Positions 4,770 to 41,762 of a DNA stretch of 62,841 nt are shown here, piece after piece. Made by a program: the position numbers and the translations under genes. The stretch is from a virus. Positions within the stretch are counted from its first letter, which is position 1. Every line of letters starts with the position of its first letter. Where the stretch lies: positions 1 through 62,841 of the IMG/VR virus record IMGVR_UViG_3300027759_000093; one strand, written 5' to 3'. The notes beneath the pieces are model-generated. The model made no database searches and was not told the DNA's origin. It saw only the letters and a list, made by a program, of their open reading frames with translations.

Positions 4770-4840
4770 GCGGATATTGCATAGTGGTAGTGCGTAACCT
4801 TGCCAAGGTTAAAGTGCGGGTCCGATTCCCGCTATCCGCT
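4770..4840 (+). tRNA. tRNA-Gly(GCC)
   Basis: Complete cloverleaf: acceptor GCGGATA/TATCCGC, anticodon arm TAACC-TTGCCAA-GGTTA (anticodon GCC), T arm GCGGG-TCCGATT-CCCGC. The CCA end is not encoded. Confidence 0.93.
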
Positions 4841-4844
4841 CTAT

Positions 4845-4916
4845 GCCCTCATCGTCTAGTGGTTAGGACATCACCCTTTCACGGTGGTAGCAGGGGTTCA
4901 ATTCCCCTTGGGGGTA
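4845..4916 (+). tRNA. tRNA-Glu(TTC)
   Basis: Acceptor GCCCTCA/TGGGGGT (with wobble pairs), anticodon arm TCACC-CTTTCAC-GGTGG (anticodon TTC), T loop TTCAATT. Lies 4 bases after tRNA-Gly. No CCA encoded. Confidence 0.93.
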
Positions 4917-4918
4917 CT

Positions 4919-4990
4919 GCCTCCTTAACTCAGTGGCAGAGTACCCGCCTTGTAAGCGGGTTGTCGTAGGTTCAAATCCTACAGGAGGCT
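4919..4990 (+). tRNA. tRNA-Thr(TGT)
   Basis: Acceptor GCCTCCT/AGGAGGC, anticodon arm CCCGC-CTTGTAA-GCGGG (anticodon TGT), T loop TTCAAAT. Third of the tight plus-strand tRNA trio. Confidence 0.93.
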
Positions 4991-5020
4991 CAACATGATA
5001 CAATGGAATAAAGGAGAAAA

Positions 5021-18160: not shown

Positions 18161-18181
18161 ATGTATATCATATCATGCGTG

Positions 18182-18252
18182 TAGGACTGGAAGGTAACGC
18201 TCCTTCTTCTCAGGATTAAAAGTCCTGAGCATCACTTTAATGCTTCAATCCC
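18182..18252 (-). tRNA. tRNA-Lys(TTT)-like, non-canonical elbow
   Basis: All four stems pair: acceptor GGGATTG/CAGTCCT, D stem GCAT/ATGC, anticodon arm CAGGA-CTTTTAA-TCCTG (anticodon TTT), T stem GAAGG/CCTTC. But the D loop is TAAAGTG without GG, and the T loop is AGCGTTA instead of the TTCRANY consensus. Either a highly derived tRNA-Lys or a tRNA-like element. Confidence 0.65.
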
Positions 18253-18256
18253 CTAG

Positions 18257-18329
18257 TACCCATAGTTGGATTTGAACCAACGCTTTGTGAATTTTAAGTC
18301 CACTGCCTCTACCGCTGGGCTACATGGGT
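18257..18329 (-). tRNA. tRNA with TAA anticodon (Leu), short variable loop
   Basis: Acceptor ACCCATG/TATGGGT, anticodon arm GTGGA-CTTAAAA-TTCAC (anticodon TAA), variable loop of only five bases (AAAGC), T arm GTTGG-TTCAAAT-CCAAC. Bacterial tRNA-Leu normally has a long variable arm. Confidence 0.8.
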
Positions 18330-18332
18330 TTG

Positions 18333-18405
18333 CTGGTCTGGTAGGACTCGGACCTACGACTTGCGAATTAACAGTTCGCCACTCTACCAACTGAGTTACA
18401 GACCA
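18333..18405 (-). tRNA. tRNA-Asn(GTT)
   Basis: Acceptor TGGTCTG/CAGACCA, anticodon arm GCGAA-CTGTTAA-TTCGC (anticodon GTT), canonical T arm GTAGG-TCCGAGT-CCTAC. No CCA encoded. Confidence 0.92.
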
Positions 18406-18409
18406 AGAG

Positions 18410-18483
18410 TACACTAGGTAGGACTTGAACCTACGATATCCGAATTATGAGTTCGGGGCCTTAACCAACTTGGCTACTAGTGT
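18410..18483 (-). tRNA. tRNA-Met/Ile2 (CAT)
   Basis: Acceptor ACACTAG/CTAGTGT, anticodon arm CCGAA-CTCATAA-TTCGG (anticodon CAT), T arm GTAGG-TTCAAGT-CCTAC. Whether it is elongator Met or lysidine-modified Ile cannot be told from the loop alone. Confidence 0.9.
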
Positions 18484-21240: not shown

Positions 21241-21570
21241 CTAGTTAAATGAATCACCGCAGGCGCATGAGCCCTGAGCATTTGGATTATCAATTGTAAA
21301 GCCCTGTTTCTCAATAGTATCTTCAAAATTAAGAGTGGCTCCTTCAAGATAAGGAACTGACATCTTATCTATTCTAAAATCAAAATCATTATAATTATAA
21401 ACATAGTCGTCGTCAAGTATTTCATAATCAAGATATGTTTTATATCTTAATCCAGAACACCCACCTGGCTGTACTGCAAGTCTTAAAAATATTTTTTTGT
21501 CTATATTTTCTGCTTGTGCCTCTTTGACAAAAAAAGCAATTTTATTTTGTGCCAATTCGGTTATATTCAT
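21241..21570 (-). CDS. A-type Fe-S carrier (IscA/ErpA/HesB family)
   Basis: 109 residues, full family length. The three ligands are Cys38 (QPGGCSGLRY), Cys102 and Cys104 (GSCACGDSF), with the family spacing of about 64 residues. It would hold and transfer Fe-S clusters or iron, possibly to the WhiB regulator or to host proteins. TATACT at 21577-21582 lies seven bases from the ATG, so this gene is probably leaderless and separately expressed. Confidence 0.9.
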   Translation of the reverse strand: MNITELAQNKIAFFVKEAQAENIDKKIFLRLAVQPGGCSGLRYKTYLDYEILDDDYVYNYNDFDFRIDKMSVPYLEGATLNFEDTIEKQGFTIDNPNAQGSCACGDSFN

Positions 21571-22898: not shown

Positions 22899-23015
22899 TT
22901 AATCCTTTCTCTTAGTAGTACACCAGATATGACCATCACTCATGGTTTGATGAATCTGCCAAAATAGGGGGTCCTTATAAGACATTTGACATTTAGCGCA
23001 TTCGTTTGATTTCAT
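22899..23015 (-). CDS. Cys/His micro-protein
   Basis: 38 residues with CAKCQMS and later HIWC, a probable Zn site. AGGAGGATATTA precedes the ATG, and TAATG couples it to the gene above. Confidence 0.55.
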   Translation of the reverse strand: MKSNECAKCQMSYKDPLFWQIHQTMSDGHIWCTTKRKD

Positions 23016-23221
23016 TAATATCCTCCTGTACAAATATTGCGGGTATGGTAAAGTCTGGTCTTAGTATAATCTTTCTTATTAGGTGCAAAGAATTGCTCAT
23101 AACAAGAGTTGCATTTACCAACCCATTCTTTAGCAAAGAAGTCATAATACATGCCTTTAAAGTTGGCATACTTTTTGGCTACGAAGGTTTGGAAAGGGTC
23201 TGGTATTTCTAGATTAATCAT
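23015..23221 (-). CDS. Small Cys-containing hypothetical protein
   Basis: 68 residues. EIPDPFQTFVAKKYANFKG is followed by GKCNSCYEQFF and a single Cys near the end. Probably metal-binding. Coupled to its neighbours by overlap. Confidence 0.55.
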   Translation of the reverse strand: MINLEIPDPFQTFVAKKYANFKGMYYDFFAKEWVGKCNSCYEQFFAPNKKDYTKTRLYHTRNICTGGY

Positions 23222-23361
23222 AGTTTAGAAACAATGTTAGATGCCATCTTCAAACCTTTAACCAAACCATCGTGATAGTCTTGGTTCTTAATTACCTTAG
23301 TCGTGTCCCAAATGCGATAAGATTCTTTGTCTAAAAGGTTTGATATTTCTTCATTTGTCAT
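23218..23361 (-). CDS. Small helical protein, first of its operon
   Basis: 47 residues (NEEISNLLDKESYRIWDTTK). TATGAT at 23368-23373 lies seven bases from the ATG, so transcription of this minus-strand micro-gene run should begin here, leaderless. The coding sequence already contains two GGTTTGA motifs of the neighbouring array. Confidence 0.55.
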   Translation of the reverse strand: MTNEEISNLLDKESYRIWDTTKVIKNQDYHDGLVKGLKMASNIVSKL

Positions 23362-24300
23362 GTATCCATCATACCAAAGTTCGGCGAAAAAAGCAAGGCG
23401 GAAAATAGAACTATCAAACCTTCCAATGCCCTAAGAGGGCAATAGCGGTTAGTATCCTAAAATCGGCGGGTATATAAAGAATGTCGTAATACCCCTAGTG
23501 TAATAACAAACCTTTCAAACCCTATAGCCTGATATCCCCATAGCCAGATAACCAGATATAAAGGTTTGAACCTGTGTGCAACTATCTGGTTTGATAATGA
23601 GAATATGCACAATATGGATCCAGGGCGATGGTTTGATACCCTGCGAAAATAGGGTTTGAAGGCTTCTAAATGCCATCTGGAGAGGTTTGATAGGATAATT
23701 AAATCTTACTGATATTTTTTATATTTGGTCTAGGTGGAGGAAAGTGGAGGATAGTGGGTGATTGAGCGCTTTTATAGATGGCTTCGTAATCCTCTGGCGG
23801 CCAAACCTCCCATCCCCAAACCTTTCAAACCTTTCTATCCCGCATATGGGGCATGCATTATACCTTCAAAACCCTGGTTTGTCAAACCTTCATAGCCTAA
23901 AAACCCCCACAAAAATGCCCAGAAAATGTAGGAAAATCTTTTAAAACACCAGCAAAAAATCTAGAAAGGTTTGATAACTATGGGAATAGTTTTAATAAGT
24001 TGTGGATTTAAATTCCCGCTTCGTAATGTCTAATAGTACTAGGACTTGGCGCCCCGCAGGGACGCAAAAACGGCGGGGATAAAAAGATATACCAATACTT
24101 CCAGTAGTATACAAACCATATCTTCTGGATAGAAAGGTTTGGCAGATATGAGGTTTGAAGGTTTGAGATAGGAAGGTTTGAAGGTTTGATATGAATCTGG
24201 AAAATTCTACAGATTACGTAATCTCCCACGATCTGGGATTTTTTTGGAAAGGTTCTTAATGTTTTTTAGGAAAAAGGGATGTCCAATTTGGGTGGTTTGA
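23250..24300. repeat. GGTTTGA iteron-like array (gene-poor control or origin region)
   Basis: At least 17 exact GGTTTGA/TCAAACC copies occur here, in both orientations, where about 0.1 would be expected by chance. Between 23362 and 24323 I find no convincing gene. The densest cluster is 24152-24189 with four copies spaced 7-15 bases apart. Many copies carry upstream A or AAA (AAAGGTTTGA), and several neighbour TATCTGG or CAGATA. Candidates are a replication origin, a partition site or a multimeric repressor region. Confidence 0.8.
24043..24068. other. GC-rich stem-loop inside the GGTTTGA region
   Basis: CCCCGC (about 24052-24057) can pair with GCGGGG (about 24073-24078) across an A-rich loop. 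It is the only G+C-rich island in the gene-poor stretch. It may be a terminator for the flanking minus-strand transcript or an origin structure. Confidence 0.35.
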
Positions 24301-24323
24301 TATAGTTTGACCCGAGTGCAGGG

Positions 24324-24905: not shown

Positions 24906-25274
24906 TTATGAGGCCCCTACGGTAGAAAGGATACCGCTGGGCAAATGATAGTTAACAAAACTGTCAATGTCATGAGAGCCTGTCTCATCAGTGATAGTGT
25001 TATTAGTTAAGTCAATTAATATTGGATGGTCCGCCCAACCTAGGTCATTAGGATTGCAAGCATAGAGGCCAAACCCTGTTTCATCAAGGATAGAGTCTTT
25101 TAGCAGATAACTCACAGCCATACGAGTGTAGTATTCATTATCTGATTTACGTACCACTGCATGCTGCAGGGCCTGAGCAAGGTCTGAATGCATAGCGTCT
25201 TCACCCCAATGGCTGTACAGCGCTACTGCTAGGTCCTCTGATTGTTTAAATACAAATGTACAACGTGCTCCCAT
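24906..25274 (-). CDS. Hypothetical protein
   Basis: 122 residues. Starts GARCTFVFKQSEDLAVALYS, with HWGEDAMHSDLAQALQHAV and a beta-type C-terminal half (IDLTNNTITDETGSHDID). Similar proteins are common in actinobacteriophages. No function assigned. Confidence 0.6.
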   Translation of the reverse strand: MGARCTFVFKQSEDLAVALYSHWGEDAMHSDLAQALQHAVVRKSDNEYYTRMAVSYLLKDSILDETGFGLYACNPNDLGWADHPILIDLTNNTITDETGSHDIDSFVNYHLPSGILSTVGAS

Positions 25275-27703: not shown

Positions 27704-27707
27704 TTTG

Positions 27708-27781
27708 CGGCTCTGATGGGACTTGAACCCACGATCTCTACCGTGACAGGGTAGCGCATTAACCAACTATGCTACAGAACC
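27708..27781 (-). tRNA. tRNA-Asp(GTC)
   Basis: Acceptor GGTTCTG/CAGAGCC with a G.T pair, anticodon arm CTACC-CTGTCAC-GGTAG (anticodon GTC), T arm GTGGG-TTCAAGT-CCCAT. It stands alone between DUF932 and the next operon. Confidence 0.92.
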
Positions 27782-33781: not shown

Positions 33782-33790
33782 TGTGGATAA
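33782..33790. promoter_or_regulatory. DnaA-box-like TGTGGATAA
   Basis: Exact reverse complement of TTATCCACA, next to a second TGTGGAAAA. Two more exact copies lie at 36288 and 36329. Confidence 0.5.
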
Positions 33791-33830
33791 ACCTGTGGAA
33801 AACGCCCCGAGGATTTTAGAACAAATGTTC

Positions 33831-36162: not shown

Positions 36163-36434
36163 TTTGAATTCCTTTCTTAGTTAAAACCTTTTTAACTTTT
36201 CTTATACTAGAAGTATAACAGGGGGGTCTGACATTTACTGACCAGTAGGTAGGACAAAACGGACATTTGGAAATGTGATATAGGTCATGTGGATAACTCA
36301 CGCTCAATTCTGAATGTGATGTGCGTCATGTGGATAACTGATCACGAGGTCGGGCGTGTCGGGCCCCGAGTCAATGTCCGATTTGCACCATTTGTCATGT
36401 GGTGTATATCACATACGACACGCCGCACTAGGAC
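36163..36434. promoter_or_regulatory. Divergent control region with CRP-like, GGACA and DnaA-box elements
   Basis: No gene found. It contains GGACAAAACGGACATT (36252-36267), three CRP/GlxR-like sites (36274-36289, 36315-36330, 36398-36413), two exact DnaA-box sequences TGTGGATAA (36288, 36329) embedded in a direct repeat of GTCATGTGGATAACT 41 bases apart, and the palindrome TCGGGCCCCGAG (36359-36370). It separates minus and plus operons and is a candidate replication origin or master switch. Confidence 0.65.
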
Positions 36435-39748: not shown

Positions 39749-40033
39749 TTACACGAAATGCTTGACTATTGCTACCGTCGCTAAAATTGACCAACCGACA
39801 TTAAAGTATATAATGGTTGGCAAAGTCTTTATTGTAGAAGTAAAAATTAAAGCCAAACTAGAGGCTAAGGCAAATACAAATAACCACCACCATTGTTTGC
39901 CGAACAAAAGACCTGGAAATATAATTGCCAGTTTTGTTGAAAATGCCCAAAACTCAATTATGTTAGTTTTATTCCAATATTTTTTTTCAAATAATTTTTT
40001 TGTTATTGCCCAAATATCTTTATGATTTATCAT
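39749..40033 (-). CDS. Small multi-pass membrane protein
   Basis: 94 residues with about three hydrophobic segments (STKLAIIFPGLLFG, WWWLFVFALASSLALIFTS, IYFNVGWSILATVAIV). It overlaps the halogenase gene by 14 bases, so it is cotranscribed. Possibly a small transporter or anchor. Confidence 0.6.
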   Translation of the reverse strand: MINHKDIWAITKKLFEKKYWNKTNIIEFWAFSTKLAIIFPGLLFGKQWWWLFVFALASSLALIFTSTIKTLPTIIYFNVGWSILATVAIVKHFV

Positions 40034-41612
40034 TGTGAATATTTTCTTTTAACCATTGATACATAGTGGGAGAATCATCCGCTTCTTTTTGCCAACTATG
40101 GCGAAAAATTCTCCACGTATTCCAGGTGCTCTTGCAACGTTCATAAATATCAACCCCATGGTTAAACTTCCACCTATCAACAGTTATTGCATTTACTGGA
40201 AAATAATTTAAGCCAGTAGCAATACAATGAATTCCACCAATTCCGTTGTGCTCATTACGATTCATTTGAACTTCTGCCAAATCTGCAAAAGAGTTAACCA
40301 TAGCCGATTTTAATTCTGGAACATTTGGCTGAAATGTTTTTTCTGTAATGTCTCTCCAGTATTTTGTATCTGTTCTGTTTGAAAGAGCATAGTGTTGTCC
40401 TACAAATTCTTTAAATCCAAGATATTGTTGTCTTGTTTTTGAGTTATATGCGTCTCTATCCCATTGCGTTATTGTTTCTCTTCCTAAAGTTTTTACAAGT
40501 TTATCTAAAAACTCATGAACTGTAAATAAGCCGTTTGATTCTAATGGTTCAATAAAGCCTGCAGCAAATCCAATAGCAACCACGTTCTTAACAAACGTAC
40601 GCCTATGAATTCCAACACGGAACTTAATATGTTTATACTCATACGAATCTACATCACGATTTGGATCATGAATAGTCATTTTATCTGAGCGTAGGTGATC
40701 TTTAAATTCTTGTAAAGCATTTTCTGGTGATATATATTTATCGCTAAATACGTATCCTGTTCCAATTCGTTCCCATGAAGGAATATTCCATACCCATCCA
40801 TGTCCAATTGCTGTGCAGTTGGTATATGGCTCCATTTCTTTTTCTTTATCTGTATAAGGAATACGAGTAGCCCATGCGCTATTGTTTGGAAGCATATGAG
40901 AGAAATCATCCCACGGCTCTTGTAATGCTCCTTCAAGAAGCATAGACTTAAATCCCGTGCAATCAATAAATAAATCCGCTGTAAGTTTTTCTCCAGTAGT
41001 AAGTGTTACCGACTCAATACCTTCTTCATTTGTAGTAACATCTGTTACGGTATCTGAAATAATTTTTACTCCACGAGGAATACAATAATTATTTTTTAGC
41101 CACTGCCCAAACTTTGTAGCATCAAAATGGTAGGCTACATCCTTTTTAAAATCAAAATTATTTAATTTTCCAGACTTATTCCAAGATATTTTATTTTGTT
41201 CTGCTAACGTTAAAGCGGGAAAGAAGGTACGTGCATAATCTGCAACATCTAAATCTGGGAATTTGGCCTTTTTTACATACCAGTCATTAAGACCATTTAC
41301 TGTTCCTTTTGTATATACTTGGCCAAATGGATAATGAAATCCACCTGCATCTTTTTTATAAAAATCTGTAAACTTGATAGACATCTTATATACAGCATCT
41401 GTAGCAGGCATAAAATCTTTTTCGTCAATGCCAATCCAGTTTGCCCATCCAGTAATTCCACCTAGCGTAGATTCACCGACTCCAATAATCGGATAGTCGG
41501 GGGACTCAATAACGATAATTTCTTTATTTGGAAATGCTCTAATCATAGACGCTGCGGACATCCATCCAGCAGATCCACCACCAACAATTACAATTTTATT
41601 TAAATTTATCAA
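40020..41612 (-). CDS. Flavin-dependent (tryptophan-type) halogenase
   Basis: 530 residues from a TTG at 41612 preceded by AAGGGGAAC. IVIVGGGSAGWMSAASMIR is the FAD loop (GxGxxG then WM), VGESTLGGI the family start, YKMSIKFTDF contains the expected catalytic Lys, and HGWVWNIPSWERIGTGYVFS holds the GWxWxIP signature that separates halogenases from monooxygenases. FIEPLESNGL completes the family pattern. It would use FADH2, O2 and halide to halogenate an aromatic or phage-specific substrate. Related halogenases are known from cyanophages. No flavin reductase is seen. Confidence 0.88.
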   Translation of the reverse strand: MINLNKIVIVGGGSAGWMSAASMIRAFPNKEIIVIESPDYPIIGVGESTLGGITGWANWIGIDEKDFMPATDAVYKMSIKFTDFYKKDAGGFHYPFGQVYTKGTVNGLNDWYVKKAKFPDLDVADYARTFFPALTLAEQNKISWNKSGKLNNFDFKKDVAYHFDATKFGQWLKNNYCIPRGVKIISDTVTDVTTNEEGIESVTLTTGEKLTADLFIDCTGFKSMLLEGALQEPWDDFSHMLPNNSAWATRIPYTDKEKEMEPYTNCTAIGHGWVWNIPSWERIGTGYVFSDKYISPENALQEFKDHLRSDKMTIHDPNRDVDSYEYKHIKFRVGIHRRTFVKNVVAIGFAAGFIEPLESNGLFTVHEFLDKLVKTLGRETITQWDRDAYNSKTRQQYLGFKEFVGQHYALSNRTDTKYWRDITEKTFQPNVPELKSAMVNSFADLAEVQMNRNEHNGIGGIHCIATGLNYFPVNAITVDRWKFNHGVDIYERCKSTWNTWRIFRHSWQKEADDSPTMYQWLKENIHNDKS

Positions 41613-41762
41613 AATAGTTCCCCTTATAAGACTATTTAATTGTACCATGAGGTAGGCTAACACTAGTCACGCTCAAAGATAGTTGGTGGTATACTGTATT
41701 TGTGGGCAAAAAAACCTTTTATAAGAAAAAAAATACTTCTATAGAAAAGATTATATTTTAAA

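Follow-up and report, generated by a model that had tools for sequence, protein, structure and literature searches.

Cluster A mycobacteriophages carry stoperators, which are many short asymmetric sites, some of them placed over the −35 element of a promoter. Between them, the phage lambda origin and the origins of iteron plasmids provide models with repeats for the initiator, an AT-rich region, transcription past the origin, and, in the plasmids, DnaA sites (PMC5043065). For the non-RepA origins of mycobacteriophage prophages, an RNA-based mechanism has been proposed in which a transcript acts as a primer or regulatory RNA (PMC7157519). For large tailed phages whose hosts are uncultured bacteria, next to nothing is known of where replication begins. 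The virus record analyzed here, which is incomplete and 62,841 bp long (36% GC, without end repeats; hereafter the window, meaning the whole stretch of DNA that was studied), contains a dense array of the heptamer GGTTTGA. Our analysis suggests that this array is probably the cis-acting region of a transcription-assisted, DnaA/iteron-type phage replication origin.

The sequence-only reading of this DNA had described at least 17 copies of GGTTTGA on both strands of a gene-free kilobase. An exact recount and Markov simulations confirmed the array: positions 23250 to 24300 hold 17 exact copies, 12 on the plus strand and 5 on the minus strand, and 17 copies in 1350 bp compare with a maximum of 4 across 200 simulations in which an order-4 Markov model represented the remaining window sequence. 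The coordinates given earlier were right for all but two copies, 23573 being 23563 and 23969 being 23968 (Table 1). No other 7-mer is as frequent in the region as GGTTTGA, and its flanks extend the site to AAGGTTTGATA. One more copy lies at 22944, beyond the 23250 to 24300 interval. Across the whole window, 43 copies are present versus 10.3 expected from dinucleotide shuffles; outside the array, the count is 25, and as the order-4 model predicts ~15 for a window of full length, enrichment of the motif beyond the array is only mild. Same-strand spacings of GGTTTG peak at 8 and 15 to 16 bp, and the repeats are thus not helically phased. That the region is free of genes was borne out in part. A stretch of 962 bp contains no ORF of 75 or more amino acids, but the copies at 23250 and 23337 are inside a small ORF, so that the strictly gene-free part has 15 copies. 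The region does separate two minus-strand gene runs, as had been proposed.

Table 1. Features of the array region and its neighboring genes (window coordinates).
Feature	Position	Strand	Remarks
Small ORF, 47 aa	23218..23361	−	first on the left; genes here are not conserved among relatives
Gene-free region, 962 bp	23362..24323		bounded by the small ORF 23218-23361 and gene a (3′ end)
Gene a, 89 aa	24324..24593	−	conserved neighbor
Gene b, 78 aa	24577..24813	−	conserved neighbor; predicted helical
Gene c, 122 aa, phrog_31860	24906..25274	−	conserved neighbor; query for the array-independent search
GGTTTGA array, plus copies	23337, 23563, 23588, 23630, 23653, 23684, 23968, 24152, 24160, 24175, 24183, 24294	+	
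GGTTTGA array, minus copies	23250, 23414, 23515, 23825, 23882	−	
Reverse-oriented GGTTTG block	23802, 23817, 23826 (23802..23831)	−	goes on at 23883
Forward GGTTTG block	24136, 24152, 24160, 24175, 24183 (24136..24189)	+	spacings 16, 8, 15, 8
GGTTTGATA site	23684..23692	+	11 bp from the conserved core; position of the first DnaA box of relatives
Conserved core ATCAGTAAGATTT, read leftward	23701..23713	−	within AT-rich block ~23695-23728; candidate unwinding element
10-bp repeats	23734..23769	−	GTGGAG 23734, GTGGAG 23744, GTGGGT 23754, GAGCGC 23764 on the plus strand; CTCCAC leftward
Second conserved motif TTCGTAAT, copy TCGTAATCC	23784..23792	+	
Second conserved motif, copy TTCGTAATGTC	24020-24030		
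Promoter TTGACA-17-TATAAT, perfect 12/12	23857..23885	−	leftward through the core; −35 inside AAGGTTTGACA
GC-rich inverted repeat CCCCGC...GCGGGG	24052..24078		conserved in close relatives only

The array keeps its place in related phages. Viral contigs were scanned for a pattern of three closely placed sites, which gave 94 stretches, and in ~40 contigs the array stands at the same position, just 3′ of genes a, b, and c. Genes upstream of these three, a DUF932 gene among them, are also common to the ~40 syntenic contigs. Orientation is preserved, with the reverse block ~450 to 700 bp from gene a and the forward block within ~220 bp. Because the pattern scan is biased toward the motif, we made a second search with gene c alone, which gave 472 candidates with an encoded relative, of which 80 loci were retained. 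At these 80 loci, chosen by gene c alone, GGTTTG occurs at 7.9/kb in the 2 kb past gene c versus 1.1/kb elsewhere. Array matches with large tandem repeats or high GC (e.g., L029 and L062) do not have genes a to c and were therefore excluded as unrelated. Some divergent relatives retain the layout with a drifted motif (AATGTTTGA, ATGGTTTG, and AGATTACGAA), which is expected for sites that track a changing binding protein. Scanned by motif and by gene c, the array is present in nearly all relatives, so the objection anticipated by the sequence-only reading, that relatives might lack it, fails.

Comparison with annotated sequences was less productive. A similarity search of the array region against annotated phages returned no match, a search with the core returned only fragments of 20 to 48 bp in unrelated phages and plasmids, and no description of the module was found in the limited set of literature searched. 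The AT-rich 16-mer alone was dropped as a scan query, as chance matches swamped the result. Genes a and b have no Pfam match, and the predicted folds of genes b and c have no PDB match. Gene c led to a single annotated relative, the lake-water Actinomycetia phage DSL-LC01 (34% identity), in which neither the array nor TTATCCACA was found, the module being absent. Most relatives of the DUF932 gene occur in phages that infect actinobacteria, Streptomyces and Mycobacterium among them; the host is likely actinobacterial, and probably a low-GC freshwater bacterium. The window also encodes a tryptophan halogenase-like protein (40020-41663; phrog_2928, E 5e-150), which is annotated in phage DSL-LC01 too, an Fe–S cluster biosynthesis protein (A-type carrier; 21241-21570), and three phrog_7084/DUF6065 paralogues in this one partial genome (19827-20624, 20536-21225, and 38286-38975). 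Eight tRNA genes are found in three places (4770-4991, 18181-18483, and 27707-27781).

Read leftward, the conserved module runs from GGTTTGA sites through the promoter, TCCA repeats, and AT-rich core to, in about half of the distinct relatives, DnaA boxes. Of 71 distinct relatives, 67 have the leftward promoter with no more than a single mismatch, and GGTTTGA overlaps the −35 element of perfect promoters and often the spacer as well. Many relatives have in addition a rightward promoter, GGTTTGACA...TAgAAT, in the block that matches 24136-24189. The leader of the leftward promoter is mostly ~150 nt and without a conserved ORF. The nearest downstream ORFs belong to 67 families across 67 loci (the largest family being present in 11 loci), and at 20 of the 67 loci the first ORF is antisense, facing the promoter. 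Since the genes downstream are unconserved, the leftward promoter does not exist for one operon. The CTCCAC-like (TCCA) repeats are spaced by exactly 10 bp in 86 of 112 neighboring pairs across relatives, and the AT-rich region that adjoins them, with its conserved core AAATCTTACTGATATTTTTTA, is predicted to melt. Folding of the core as single-stranded DNA was not significant. Between the promoter and the 10-bp repeats lies a conserved TTACGA-type motif. Almost every relative has the motif TTCGTAATGTC/CGTAAT in its array region, with few exceptions to a single orientation, and at locus L304 it is the main repeat.

The boxes divide the relatives into two classes. About half of the distinct relatives carry one to three, usually two or three, copies of TGTGGATAA, the complement of the DnaA-box consensus TTATCCACA, beginning 3 to 4 bp after the core. 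A scan of viral contigs for the core followed by such a box, with 0 to 10 spacer bases allowed, gave 114 stretches. The core-plus-box span is exactly 25 nt in 123 of 127 matches, and at least two boxes are present at 78 of 83 distinct core-plus-box sites, successive boxes being mostly 11 to 12 bp apart with more peaks near 21, 33, 44, and 55 bp. Bacterial and archaeal genomes totaling 257 Gb yielded the pattern a single time, and there the spacer differed; this near-absence indicates that the module is phage-specific. Beside gene c, a DnaA box is present at 33 of 71 distinct core-bearing loci, always 3 to 4 bp past the core, and the remaining 38 have no box within 70 bp of the core, even at one mismatch. 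At 21 of these 38 box-free loci, CAAACC (a GGTTTG site) is located 8 to 13 bp after the core. The window belongs to the latter set, with a distance of 11 bp, and its array contains no DnaA box, and hence no box cluster beside the core. A tree of gene c, built from 123 columns and of poor resolution, places the window in a clade of 31 members, 30 of them box-free, and box presence changes at least seven times on this poorly resolved tree. As judged from the sequence, the window's clade has lost its DnaA boxes. The presence of a GGTTTGA site where the boxes stood suggests that the protein binding it took over their role.

An origin, a partition centromere, and a multi-site repressor had been put forward as the main options. 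We favor the origin because DnaA boxes occupy a fixed position in relatives, the core is AT rich, and what follows the promoter differs in gene content from one relative to another; the centromere is disfavored, and a multi-site regulator is retained as a rival. The case for conservation is strong, that for function inferential. Support for an origin comes from the retention of the array beside genes a to c in the ~40 syntenic contigs and the 80 gene-c loci, from TCCA repeats set exactly 10 bp apart, and from a promoter conserved though the genes that it would feed are not. It comes also from replication genes: a 104-kb relative encodes a DnaB-like helicase, a DnaG-like primase, SSB, and UvsX/RecA, and no DnaA gene was found in 20 incomplete contigs.

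In such an origin, a phage (or host) protein would load on the GGTTTGA sites of the reverse and forward blocks, and the strong sigma70-type promoter would fire leftward through the origin. As the −35 element lies inside a GGTTTGA site, the same protein could couple replication and transcription. The AT-rich core would open, an event that host DnaA, on one to three tandem boxes beside the core, would promote in box-bearing relatives, and the phage DnaB-type helicase and primase would load after opening. In the window's clade, from which the boxes are gone, opening would presumably be the work of the GGTTTGA-binding protein. The sequences establish the array, its conservation and fixed architecture, and the DnaA-box strings with their loss; we infer that the GGTTTGA sites bind a putative initiator, that DnaA binds the TGTGGATAA boxes, and that the core melts and replication starts at the array. 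More tentatively, a large aquatic, probably actinobacterial phage family may share a DnaA-box origin, in which one clade has replaced host DnaA, at the same position, by a GGTTTGA-binding initiator that the phage itself specifies and that is of no recognized family, while the core, promoter, and 10-bp repeats were kept; such a clade would show a swap of initiators in progress.

Several observations weigh against an origin. GC skew, which had been suggested as a check, tracks the strand of the genes, with no switch where the array lies. No Rep3_N domain of a Rep3-type initiator was found in 19 incomplete contigs and no DnaA gene in 20, the folds of genes b and c are without a match, the GGTTTG spacing is nonhelical, and the window's array has no DnaA box. 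GGTTTGA overlaps promoter elements as an operator would, and the string TGTGGATAAC is present at a second intergenic hub (window 33782, 36288, and 36329). This hub, ~10 to 12 kb from the array, is kept by box-bearing and box-free relatives alike and might act as a second origin or in regulation. Its TGTGGATAA boxes are at 33782-33802 and 36288-36338 and include a pair 41 bp apart (GTCATGTGGATAACT twice) in the intergenic region between oppositely oriented small genes. Palindromes resembling CRP/GlxR sites (TGTGA-N6-TCACA) number 4 exact and 10 within one mismatch in the window, versus 2.9 expected. Nine of the 10 are located between 26.7 and 36.6 kb (26774, 30233, 31411, 33757, 34606, 35060, 35170, 36398, and 36616), a clustering that is repeated in four relatives and that controls with other spacers do not show; it has the appearance of a block of phage genes controlled by a host regulator of the cAMP-receptor type. 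The occurrence of TGTGGATAAC at the second hub beside CRP-like sites means that the string may have a regulatory use.

These observations bear most directly on the possibility that the array is a multi-operator transcription hub, in which GGTTTGA would serve as operator for a regulator, of phage or host, acting on the strong leftward and, in relatives, also the rightward promoter, the strings of DnaA boxes being regulatory too. It would act in the manner of mycobacteriophage stoperators or of an early-promoter switch. We consider a hub of this kind the main rival, though one of low probability. The perfect promoters with GGTTTGA in the −35 element, and often in the spacer, have the arrangement of an operator over a promoter, where the operator role would be putative; the mild excess of GGTTTGA elsewhere in the window and the TGTGGATAAC strings beside promoters and CRP-like palindromes at the second hub point the same way. 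However, the leftward promoter feeds no conserved gene and often faces antisense ORFs, boxes 3 to 4 bp from an AT-rich core that is itself ~150 bp downstream of the promoter are not placed like operators, and 17 copies in 1 kb exceed what one promoter needs. Nor is there a sign of a lysogeny switch, as no phage integrase was found in 19 incomplete contigs, where controls were detected. The origin and transcription-hub readings are compatible: the overlap of GGTTTGA with the −35 element of perfect promoters means that a multi-site regulator may be the same protein as the initiator.

The strong conserved promoter, its leader without a conserved ORF, and the AT-rich tract downstream would also suit an origin based on RNA, with the leftward transcript as primer or regulatory RNA, for which the non-RepA prophage origins offer a precedent (PMC7157519). 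We consider this unlikely, given that RNAalifold detected no consensus fold in a gappy alignment of 67 leaders, that Rfam returned no family except tRNAs, and that tandem DnaA boxes point to a protein. A short site that is repeated and keeps its place could also serve packaging (pac) or mark a recombination hot spot; the array has neither terminase nor capsid genes beside it, though, and the architecture of promoter, core, and DnaA boxes would be left unexplained, making this reading very unlikely. A short site present many times where no genes lie recalls a parS-like partition centromere, yet the sites are of mixed orientation with a promoter embedded among them. Searches of the same 19 incomplete contigs, in which positive controls were detected, found no ParB_N or ParA-type AAA_31 domain and no integrase, and we regard a centromere as highly improbable.

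If the array is an origin, the module supplies a signature recognizable in >100 contigs and a testable origin for lineages without a cultured member that carries one. It offers a natural comparison between a DnaA-dependent and an apparently DnaA-free version of one origin, and it points to a putative DNA-binding protein.

Like the lambda origin, the array has short repeats of a presumed initiator site next to an AT-rich region that would open, with a strong phage promoter directed past it (PMC5043065). The iterons of lambda are few, 19 bp long, near-palindromic, and located within the O gene, whereas the window has ~17 asymmetric sites of 7 to 9 bp in both orientations within a gene-free kilobase, and no O-like initiator was identified in these phages. 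The lambda origin is not known to use DnaA boxes; many relatives of the window carry them. The joining of iterons, AT-rich region, and DnaA boxes in one module is shared with iteron plasmid origins (P1 oriR, RK2 oriV, and pSC101), and multiple repeat copies, 17 here and kept in relatives, lie in noncoding DNA; "iteron" is a fair descriptive name. In contrast to those plasmids, no Rep gene was found in the 19 incomplete contigs, spacings of 8 and 15 to 16 bp replace helical phasing, and the DnaA boxes are lost from the window's clade. The tandem, same-orientation TTATCCACA boxes of relatives adjoin the AT-rich core at a fixed spacing as in a bacterial oriC; unlike oriC, the module is carried by phages in which no dnaA gene was found, includes phage-specific GGTTTGA arrays, and in the window is without boxes. 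With the non-RepA origins of cluster A mycobacteriophage prophages (PMC7157519) it would share a promoter-driven design, the lack of a recognized initiator gene nearby, and, probably, actinobacterial phages as carriers. Those prophages are temperate and have parABS, whereas no par genes or integrase of a temperate phage were found here in the 19 incomplete contigs, and the module has many repeats and no detected consensus RNA fold. Stoperators are scattered genome-wide, whereas the GGTTTGA sites are concentrated in one kilobase. Although it departs from its closest families in helical phasing, in the lack of boxes in the window, and in the lack of a detected Rep gene, the module, read as an origin, would work like known origins.
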